NCBI GenBank assembly: GCA_003153375.1
Contig: PLYM01000121.1
Span: 28,615 to 67,069, forward strand
DNA from: Planctomycetaceae bacterium
GTDB taxonomy: Bacteria > Planctomycetota > Planctomycetia > Pirellulales > PALSA-1355
Direction: 5' to 3'
Length of the DNA stretch: 38,455 nt
The position numbers were made by a program, and so were the translations under genes. Shown here piece by piece: positions 1 through 28,208 of the stretch. How positions within the stretch are numbered: the first letter of the stretch is position 1; each line of letters begins with the position of its first letter. Under the pieces are notes generated by a model. It saw only the letters and a program-made list of their open reading frames with translations. It did not search any database and was not told the origin of the DNA.

Positions 1-274
1 GTGGAATGAGCGGCTCGGCCACCCGCCCTTTCGGGTCCTTATTTCACGAGGCTGCAAGGTTCACTTTATGTTGGGCCCGCGAACTCGCTCCGCTCCCAGA
101 GACCTTACGGCCCCCTAAGGGCTTTTGACATCCCGCTCGGACGACCAATTCTCACTCGTCGCCCGGGGATCTGCTACACGGCGCTCCGGCGCTTACCGCG
201 ACGGGACTTTCACCCGCAAGTCTGATACAGCACGATTCGCCCCGCTGTCGTGTGGCAAATCTTTCAGGACGCAC
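1..274 (-). mobile_element. Group II intron, 5' part (truncated by window edge)
   Basis: On the minus strand the sequence starting at 274 reads GTGCGTCC, matching the GUGYG 5' end of group II introns. About 60 nt in comes GGGTGAAAGTCCC, the hairpin-type motif seen in domain I of many bacterial group II introns, and further on a purine-rich stretch (AAAGTGAACC, then GTGAAATAAGGACC) of the kind found in the later part of domain I to domain III. Several compact hairpins are visible, for example GACGA/TCGTC around an 11-nt loop. No ORF fits this stretch; an intron-encoded reverse transcriptase would lie beyond base 1. The insertion point is 118 bp downstream of the aminotransferase stop codon. 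I could not identify a convincing EBS1/IBS1 pairing, so the 5' boundary and class are provisional. Confidence 0.68.
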
Positions 275-392
275 AATGTGTATCAGTGATCTAATGCACT
301 AGAATGGCCGCAAGCGAAATCCGAAATGTTGTTGTGGGTCGCCGCGGGGGCCGTGCCGCCGTGGGCGAGTGATGAACCGGCGACGCGGGCTC

Positions 393-6954: not shown

Positions 6955-7824
6955 CTACCACTCGATGCTTGCCGCGTCGAATATCGGCCCTTCGACACAC
7001 GTGCGCCGGTAATCCCAGCCGCCCGCGTCGTCGCGGACTTTGGCCACGCAACTGAAGCAAATGCCAATTCCACAGGCCATTGGCGTCTCCAACGACACCT
7101 GGCACGGCACGCGCAAGCGAGCCGCCAGGTGCGCCACGGCTTCCATCATCCGCTCAGGTCCGCAACAAACGACGCGGGCCGCGGGCGAAGCCGCCAACAC
7201 CTGCTCGGCCACTTCGGTCACCAGCCCGTGATGGCCGGCCGAGCCGTCATCGGTGCTCACCAGCACTTCGATCCCGGCCCGCTCGAACTCGGGAATGCCG
7301 GCCAGATAATCCTTGTTGCGTGCGCCGTAGCAGAGCGTGACGCGGGCCACGGGGCGAACCTTGCGGGCAGGGTGGCCATAGTGACGCCGACCCAGGTGCT
7401 CGCGAGCCAGGGCCAAAAACGGCGTCTGCCCAATGCCGCCGGCGACCATTACCAGGTGTTCGCAGGCTTGCGGGGCGAAGCCATTGCCCAAAGGGCCCCA
7501 GACTTCAAGCTTTTGGCCGCTCGGGACCCGCGACAACAGGCCGGTCATTTTTCCGACGACCAGATAAACGACGTCGACTTCACTCGCCACGCCGTCGGGG
7601 CCATCGTGCGTGTCGTACAGCGCCATCGGCCGACCCAGCAACGGATCGTCGCAGCCGGCCAGACGCAACATGAGGAACTGGCCCGGAACAACGTGCCGGG
7701 CTAGCTTCGGACATTCGAAGCGGAGACGAAACGTGTCCCGCGCGATCCGAGTATTCTCCAGGATCGTGACCTGCTCGTGGCAGGCGCGGTGAGCGAAGTG
7801 CACGGCGTGCGCGAGTTCGGTCAT
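6955..7824 (-). CDS. pyrK: Dihydroorotate dehydrogenase electron-transfer subunit
   Basis: A 289-aa ferredoxin-reductase-type flavoprotein. The FAD-binding barrel contains PGQFLMLRL and LLGRPMALYD; the nucleotide-binding domain has VAGGIGQTPFLALA and VVCCGPERMMEAV. The C-terminal METPMACGIGICFSC-type segment (here ETPMACGIGICFSCVAK plus a later RRTC) supplies four cysteines for a 2Fe-2S cluster, the hallmark of PyrK. The subunit passes electrons from PyrD to NAD+ in pyrimidine synthesis; the partner pyrD is not in this window. It begins 14 bp after the pseudouridine synthase stop, so the two are probably co-transcribed. Confidence 0.93.
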   Translation of the reverse strand: MTELAHAVHFAHRACHEQVTILENTRIARDTFRLRFECPKLARHVVPGQFLMLRLAGCDDPLLGRPMALYDTHDGPDGVASEVDVVYLVVGKMTGLLSRVPSGQKLEVWGPLGNGFAPQACEHLVMVAGGIGQTPFLALAREHLGRRHYGHPARKVRPVARVTLCYGARNKDYLAGIPEFERAGIEVLVSTDDGSAGHHGLVTEVAEQVLAASPAARVVCCGPERMMEAVAHLAARLRVPCQVSLETPMACGIGICFSCVAKVRDDAGGWDYRRTCVEGPIFDAASIEW

Positions 7825-26720: not shown

Positions 26721-28208
26721 TCAATATTTGGCCGGCCCGGTGGCCCGCTTCAACACGTCGCGCATCAACTCGCTGGGGGCTTCCTGGCCGGTGAACAGTT
26801 TGAATTGCAGGCAGGCCTGGCGGACGAACATCTCGACGCCGGTGACCACGGTGCAGCTTTGGCTGCGGGCGTCCTTGATCAGCAGCGTGTTCTCGGGATT
26901 GTAGACCGTATCGAACACGACCATCGAGGGGCGCAGATGATGCTTGTCATAGGGCGTGGCATCGACGTTGGGGTGCATGCCCACCGGGGTGCAGTTGACC
27001 AGCAGGTCAGGCTGGAAGGCATAGCGATTGTTCCAATCGAGCGTTTTGCACTTCAGCCCATCGGCCAGTTGCTGGGCCCGTTGGCCGGTGCGGCCGGCGA
27101 TCGTAACCACGGCGCCCAATTGCTTGAGGCCGAAGGCGATCGCCTTGGCCGCGCCGCCGGCGCCCAGCACCAGGGCTGCCTGGCCTTCCAGCGAGCCCTT
27201 GCGGCCGTAGTGCGCTTCGAGGGCTTGTTCCAGGCTGTCGAGGGCCGCTTGATAATCGGTGTTGAAGCCGGCGATCTTGCCGTTATCGAATAGCAACGTG
27301 TTGGCCGCACCCACGCCGGTCATCGTGGCGTCGCTCGACGAGAGCTTCTTGAGCACGGCTTCCTTGTGCGGAATCGTGACGCTCAGTCCCTTGATGCCCA
27401 GCGCCGGAGCGTCTTCGAGAAACTGCGACAGGTGCTCGCGCGGCACGCGAAACGGAATGTAGACGGCGTTGATGCCCTGACGGCGAAACGCCGCGTTGTG
27501 CACCATCGGGCTCAGGCTGTGGCCGATCGGGTCGCCGATCACGCCATAGACGGTTGTCTGGGCGTCGATCTGGTCATAGTGATAGATATCCGTCATCTGC
27601 TGGTAGCTCAACTGGCCGGGGGCCAGCGTGCGCTCGTGATGAAACGTGGCGAACGTGAAGGGCGCGCCGAAGCGGCCGGCCAGCAGGCGCGACGGCGTGC
27701 CGATGTCGCCCATGCAGATGCCGACGGTGGGCACCTTCGAACGGGCCACGAGCTCGAGCATCCGCAGGTTGTCGTGCGACTGGTTGGCCGTGGTGGCCAG
27801 CTTGATGATGTCCGGATCGTGCGACGCCAGCCGGGCATGGATCTCGTTGAGATCGTCGGGCGTCTTGCGATAATCGTGCAGGCTGATGATCCGCTTGGTT
27901 TTGCCATAACGGGGAATCTGCGAGGCGATGTCATCCTCCAGATCGACGTACTCCACCCCCTCGGCGATGGCGCTGCGCAACAGCATCAACCGCTGCTCGT
28001 CGGTGCCCGCCCACTTGCCGCCGTCGCGCTCGCGGCGACAGGTGATCACGACCGGCGAGGGGCGATCGGCCAGCAGCCGTTTCAGGTTCACCTCGCCGCC
28101 GATGTAGTCGAGCCGCAACTCGACGAGTTGCGCCCCCTGTTGCACCAGGTGACGATGCTCGGCCATCACGTGCCGATGCCGGCCGCGAGCAATGCTGACA
28201 CAAATCAT
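26721..28208 (-). CDS. aroDE: Bifunctional 3-dehydroquinate dehydratase / shikimate dehydrogenase
   Basis: From the ATG at 28208 (MICVSIARGRHRHVMAEH) the product is 495 aa. Residues about 1-215 are type I dehydroquinase: the Schiff-base lysine is in DIIKLATTA and the catalytic histidine in IISLHDYRK. Residues about 220-495 are shikimate dehydrogenase: GDPIGHSLSPMVHNAAF, VTIPHKEAV (catalytic Lys), FNTDYQAAL (Asp) and NADP loop VLGAGGAAKAIAFGL. The domain order is that of plant AroDE and also occurs in Chlamydiae and planctomycetes. A 23-codon upstream extension is rejected. The strong promoter at 28314-28341 supports the start. Confidence 0.96.
   Translation of the reverse strand: MICVSIARGRHRHVMAEHRHLVQQGAQLVELRLDYIGGEVNLKRLLADRPSPVVITCRRERDGGKWAGTDEQRLMLLRSAIAEGVEYVDLEDDIASQIPRYGKTKRIISLHDYRKTPDDLNEIHARLASHDPDIIKLATTANQSHDNLRMLELVARSKVPTVGICMGDIGTPSRLLAGRFGAPFTFATFHHERTLAPGQLSYQQMTDIYHYDQIDAQTTVYGVIGDPIGHSLSPMVHNAAFRRQGINAVYIPFRVPREHLSQFLEDAPALGIKGLSVTIPHKEAVLKKLSSSDATMTGVGAANTLLFDNGKIAGFNTDYQAALDSLEQALEAHYGRKGSLEGQAALVLGAGGAAKAIAFGLKQLGAVVTIAGRTGQRAQQLADGLKCKTLDWNNRYAFQPDLLVNCTPVGMHPNVDATPYDKHHLRPSMVVFDTVYNPENTLLIKDARSQSCTVVTGVEMFVRQACLQFKLFTGQEAPSELMRDVLKRATGPAKY

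Follow-up and report, generated by a model that had tools for sequence, protein, structure and literature searches.

Group IIC introns insert after terminators or at attC. The available text of PMC4424553 presents the class C target as set by a genetic signal and not by a single long homing sequence, and states that introns without an endonuclease need another primer, for example one from the replication fork. Two further systems come close to the locus described here. C.te.I1 of Clostridium tetani has no reverse transcriptase (RT) of its own and start codons are annotated at its D5/6 motifs (PMC3919590, in the portion available); its 5' splice site lies away from GUGYG, 8 nt upstream (available portions of PMC3919590 and PMC4424553). 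TeI3 of Thermosynechococcus has multiplied as RT-less copies, some of which have a start codon of the same gene on either side (available portion of PMC2882425). We consider it probable that the intron at our locus is a copy, deleted for its RT, of a rare group II lineage whose usual site is a start codon with a -10 box directly ahead of it, the layout of a leaderless gene.

The window, the whole stretch of 38,455 nt that we analysed, is C266:28615-67069 of a 6.7 Mb genome (G000) assembled in 291 contigs. The initial annotation had read its left end as the 5' end of a group II intron on the minus strand from position 274, cut by the window edge, and had suggested a search with the Rfam group II models. 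That search bears the reading out, with RF02003 (group-II-D1D4-4) matching 66..219 on the minus strand at 70.1 bits (E 1.5e-13, gathering score 49), the sole gathering-level Rfam match within the window. The motifs it had picked out could be placed on the same strand, GTGCGTCC, the canonical 5' GUGYG boundary motif (GTGCG at window 274), at 267..274 and GGGTGAAAGTCCC at 215-203, and in three other places of the same genome (C85, C172 and C33) similarity starts at this same 5' boundary. A scaffold gap of two Ns lies directly left of base 1. The 5' part of the intron fills 1..274 (minus strand), from GTGCGTCC to the gap, and the intron resumes beyond it in the same contig, where further intron sequence, D5-D6 and the end ..CTGAGGTCTACCTAT carry it to C266:28159 (L006 7545). 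Of the two features that the annotation expected to the left of base 1, D5-D6 is present ~370 nt away, but there is no RT body, and all that this copy retains of the intron-encoded RT/maturase is an N-terminal remnant. Its D5-D6, which ends in ..AT, scores 31.4 bits with RF00029, below the gathering score of 40 that other copies exceed (e.g. L011, L012, L073, L086 and L148). The assembled intron is 730 nt long; relative to the G055 intron, ~110 nt are absent at the NN gap, as are ~1180 nt of the RT. Group II introns without an RT are an accepted part of the class, and by its 5' boundary and D1-D4 core the window element is one of them.

The RT deletion is shared. An identical junction is found in C82 and C85 of the same genome, from which we conclude that the RT-less form has multiplied. 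The genome has two PF00078 matches, both removed by a motif and similarity filter for RTs of the lineage, and no match to the lineage RT at 1e-100 among the matches listed; the assembly may lack the partner RT. The AGC of D5 is the catalytic triad of group II introns. It is AGG in the window copy and AGC in 20/20 other aligned copies, a count made without G441, which also has no D5 AGC. Because of this alteration the window copy is probably splicing-dead.

The position of the intron was established by comparison with relatives. The initial annotation had placed it intergenically behind an aminotransferase gene, 118 bp from the boundary; the distance is right (the open reading frame ends at window 393), but the intron sits in the start codon of a GntR-type gene on its other side. 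The intron end ..CTAT and one exon G form the ATG of this 133-aa gene (PF00392) with the reading frame intact. Intron-free orthologs exist in two genomes of the same family, G003 (78% identity) and G002 (77%), and these supply the empty site that had been sought in related genomes. Its common form is ..TACACTAATACAC-ATG-GC, reading GTGTATTGCTACACTAATACAC-ATG-GCC in G003 and GTGTATTACTACACTAATACAC-ATG-GCT in G002 (L118 and L119), while the occupied site in the window reads GTGCATTAGATCACTGATACAC-AT-[T-GTGCG..CTAT]-G-GCC. The intron therefore lies between the T and the G of the start codon (AT/G, the slash marking the junction), and its terminal AT rebuilds ATG in frame. Bases 1 and 2 of the interrupted codon are at 276..277 (minus strand) and its G follows the intron at L006 7544. 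GUGYG is preceded by one extra base, a T at 275..275 (minus strand) that is a G in most other copies. From these alignments the window copy is shown to be a group II intron that interrupts AT/G of the GntR-type gene and re-creates its ATG from the terminal AT and the exon G.

Directly ahead of the start codon, at 278..299 (minus strand), lies the decayed promoter-operator of the GntR-type gene, GTGCATTAGATCACTGATACAC; the relatives have GTGTATTGCTACACTAATACAC, with TACACT as the -10 box. The AGTG/CACT hairpin noted earlier was found inside a decayed palindrome at this place. In L118 and L119 the palindrome, GTGTATT-N8-AATACAC (window 278-299), overlaps the -10 box and abuts the start codon; it is perhaps the regulator's own operator. 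TATTA-type repeats similar to it stand ahead of several remoter homologs. The aminotransferase gene is not matched anywhere in the 3.4-kb loci that surround the GntR-type gene in the relatives G003 and G002. Behind the GntR-type gene, and left of the window, an ABC-transporter ATPase reading frame ends after ..VVGLLGK (the Walker A region) and gives way to unrelated sequence at L006 ~7020-7035 (C266 ~27635-27650), about where similarity to G002 also stops; the break could be the end of a mobile element or an assembly join. The annotation's failure to match the intron to class C is in line with our own count of terminator-like sites, which is zero on both strands of L006 8200-8600, the locus of the window copy, and for this copy we reject insertion of the class C type behind a terminator.

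Given the gap, the two intron halves of C266 might have been misjoined: the Ns lie inside the intron, and other contigs start or stop inside the intron. We regard this as extremely unlikely, since in two relatives the operator seen here in the 5' exon stands together with the gene seen here in the 3' exon, and the same geometry is found in unbroken copies elsewhere.

We aligned 21 copies of the intron, leaving out G441 and G093 (D5 lost) and the minis described below. As typed from the junctions as read, the 3' end makes ATG in 19/21 and GTG in 2/21, that is, a start codon in 21/21; copies without a locus of their own (e.g. G074:C536, G286:C286 and a second place in G441:C57) stand outside the junction counts. 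TACCAATG is common to 15/21 aligned copies although D6 varies. The copies making GTG form a subtype with the 3' end ..CCGT/G (G074:C423, L090, and G219:C172, L095). The host genes are unrelated and include GntR, FAD oxidoreductase (DAO), TANGO2, protein kinase, HD domain, sulfatase, spermine-synthase domain and TPR protein genes, while further ones have signal-peptide-like starts as judged by eye. In the TANGO2 gene the match runs from residue 1 and profile position 1. The copy of G055 (C32, 2.0 kb) reads TAGAAT-GGCAAC-ATG/GTGCG..CTACCAAT/GAGCGA. Intron-free orthologs of the host gene on the megaplasmid of the actinomycete Embleya begin at the corresponding codon, with empty sites TACGCT-7-ATG ACC GAG ACC in Nonomuraea and TACGCT-6-GTG in Streptomyces. 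By contrast with these junctions, when 22 junctions from other group II introns were inspected by eye (sets of 6, 10 and 6), a start codon arose at none of them. The length of the open frame past the junction is a weak test of a gene start and we set it aside: frames of at least 60 codons are open at 17/22 junctions against 854/1848 random ATGs. By the junction alignments, the same AT/G geometry is shown to recur in related copies at unrelated genes.

Upstream of the junction, TANNNT stands 6-7 nt ahead of the ATG in 12/14 readable 5' exons, compared with 11/1662 background ATGs and 1/138 first ATGs of long reading frames; the binomial figure against background is 6e-25, which overstates independence, as sites share genomes. 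The 14 leave aside G532 (the contig begins at the ATG), G180 and C192 (the 5' end was not located in the former and is absent from the latter) and four minis that have a common promoter. The two misses are G533, with its box at 9 nt, and the window copy, which has none; the orthologs of the latter carry TACACT 7 nt before the ATG. A TANNNT box close to the start is a mark of leaderless genes, and 12/14 exons have the predicted layout of such genes. Upstream exon bases otherwise differ among sites, apart from TANNNT and YAT/G (Y in 12/14), and the three inner bases of the box are themselves variable, so that on sequence grounds a promoter fits better than plain base pairing.

This variability bears on a reading to which we give a little less than an even chance, namely ordinary retrohoming, in which the intron finds a conventional site by pairing with the exon and by contacts of its RT, and splices every time. 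A splice one base before GUGYG would then restore AU+G, and the AUG at the intron end would be a by-product of the usual ..AU terminus. AY is indeed the usual end of group II introns, and a shift of the 5' splice site, by 8 nt, is known in C.te.I1 (both from the available text of PMC4424553); the copies that carry an RT have also kept the D5 AGC. Against it stand the broken triad of the window copy and the variation of the upstream bases outside TANNNT and YAT/G.

Survivor bias would explain the pattern differently: insertion would be wide, and only those insertions would persist that fall in a start codon and regenerate an in-frame AUG. One copy, in Pla86, does lie inside a gene (PAP2-like, named by eye), and at four further junctions only short frames are open (17 codons in G055 C32, 21 in G076, 24 in G286 C287 and 21 in G372); these exceptions also count against our main reading. 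Even so, the intragenic Pla86 site still has the box at the usual distance (TACCCT-CTGCCC-ATG), the exact AT/G register recurs, and survival alone would favour intergenic sites as well, which need neither box nor register. We therefore think survivor bias improbable. The Pla86 empty site gave no usable ortholog (2/41 genomes matched, one being Pla86 itself).

The genome of the window holds further copies in various states of reduction. A search with the 3'-end pattern, which itself requires ATG, finds 12 places, and the reversed pattern 0. Three are RT-less introns (C266, C82 and C85), five are minis (C230, C148, C94, C75 and C19) and four are stubs (C71 and three in C182). The minis, ~155-170 nt long, align to approximately the first 70 and the last 80-90 nt of the intron and lack the 5' side of D5. 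In the stubs the 3' strand of D6 is present and its partner strand absent; by eye, three of the four have 37-40 nt from a TAGAAT box to the ATG, and the fourth is preceded by coding-like sequence. As read from these alignments, the shortened copies are shown to retain the gene-proximal end and the ATG, and any of the genes behind them that is expressed would take its start from the intron end. That copies without parts of the ribozyme still keep the ATG also counts against ordinary retrohoming with obligatory splicing.

It could be argued that the short leaders of this genome are host leaders copied by the intron rather than relics of it. In support, 4/5 minis share sequence upstream of the promoter too (by eye), which we take to mean that the minis spread by duplication. 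The minis, however, align to both intron ends, and the stubs have the 3' strand of D6 without a partner strand, so we judge a host origin quite unlikely. Integron-like cassettes and an unrelated family of host leaders were likewise rejected for the small-gene leaders, which align to both intron ends. L038 4300-11500 (G000:C182) is an array of small genes with the common N-terminus RRWxRFTLRTLFVVVTVxxxWLGYELNWIRQRH, some with intron-stub leaders. Another group II type is represented by near-identical ~85-nt D5-D6 fragments at G000:C13:17374-17447 (L015) and G000:C56:1127-1200 (L016), with differing flanks and the same left end.

RT-bearing copies occur in 10 genomes or records, namely G055, Pla86 (CP036296, = G210), a MAG filed as Alphaproteobacteria (JAJFGV010000100), G489, G533, G532, G180, G076, G286 and the Embleya megaplasmid. 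Both intron ends are present in 9/10, G180 being without a 5' end; the Pla86 RT is damaged and G074 has a partial RT. The G055 RT (446 aa; TIGR04416, 429.5 bits) has RVT_1 and GIIM and no endonuclease domain by Pfam. The lineage is rare, being detected in at least 5/392 genomes of the phylum at 1e-100 and in 5/154 genomes of one class at 1e-120. The G055 intron is matched in 15/396 genomes of the order to which the window belongs at 1e-15, where matches outside G000, G001 and G055 lie within the RT gene only, and the 3' end alone as query gives 39/392 at 1e-3, many of them D5 only, from other introns. Introns of the lineage are found mainly in Planctomycete bacteria. In a tree of 18 RTs, a branch with weak support (65/15) separates the nine start-codon RTs from the rest. 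When Embleya and Streptomyces NBC_00857 are included and one long row is taken out, their two RTs pair and the tree requires two changes.

In our preferred account, both the way in which the site is chosen and the reading of the host genes as spliced or unspliced transcripts are inferred. The endonuclease-less RT and the intron RNA would reverse-splice into the coding strand at the start-codon site, and the insertion would be tolerated because an AUG is present both before splicing (intron AU and exon G) and after it (exon AU and exon G). The latter would require the 5' splice site to lie one base ahead of GUGYG. The one-base offset may reflect exactly this, or a base added on insertion; Pla86, with its damaged RT, fits the canonical boundary instead, which preserves the PAP2-like frame where a one-base offset would not. 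Copies unable to splice, probably including that in the window, would persist as 5' leaders and provide the start codon from their terminal bases. A Shine-Dalgarno role for the GAGG is a weak candidate: GAGG is paired in D6 in the 3/4 folded copies that have it, and it is absent from several members.

More tentatively, and as a possibility that we think rather unlikely, the ribonucleoprotein would act at leaderless promoters, reverse-splicing between +2 and +3 into the coding strand that RNA polymerase exposes in its open complex, which would be a fourth target specificity for bacterial group II introns. The 5' exon in the RNA would then be AU only, replaced by the intron's own AU end; a leaderless gene would become leadered, and the minis and stubs ordinary 5' leaders. 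Targeting of this kind would account for a site that follows promoters and not one sequence. With the open complex as target, the site would be selected by transcription itself.

Among the open-access papers searched, we recognised none that reports group II introns lodged in the start codons of genes unrelated to one another; in PMC3552965 the terms 'start codon', 'insertion site' and 'target' do not occur. Also comparable are other RF02003-type introns (Leptospira, Paenibacillus, Streptomyces NBC_00857, E. coli, Azotobacter and Planctomyces SH-PL62 plasmids), which belong to the same Rfam D1-D4 family and have RTs that are 41-56% identical, yet differ in having no start codon after the 3' end (6/6, by eye). 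C.te.I1 differs in occupying one locus, in an S-layer gene array, where splicing fuses reading frames, and the portion of PMC3919590 available describes no promoter-ATG target for it. TeI3 has one fixed site, in another intron's RT gene (available portion of PMC2882425), whereas here the genes are unrelated and the start codon itself is entered. As to group IIC, the nearest solved RT is the GsI-IIC RT (PDB 6ar1, E 1.1e-62), the lineage RT is similarly endonuclease-less (only RVT_1, GIIM and RVT_N in Pfam), and the target would again be a genetic signal. Several steps of a retroelement becoming a 5' leader would be visible here inside one genome. Unlike that of group IIC, the signal here would be a -10 box with a start codon; a start codon that follows a promoter would add a fourth target to those of group II introns, offering a way into a gene without removing its start.
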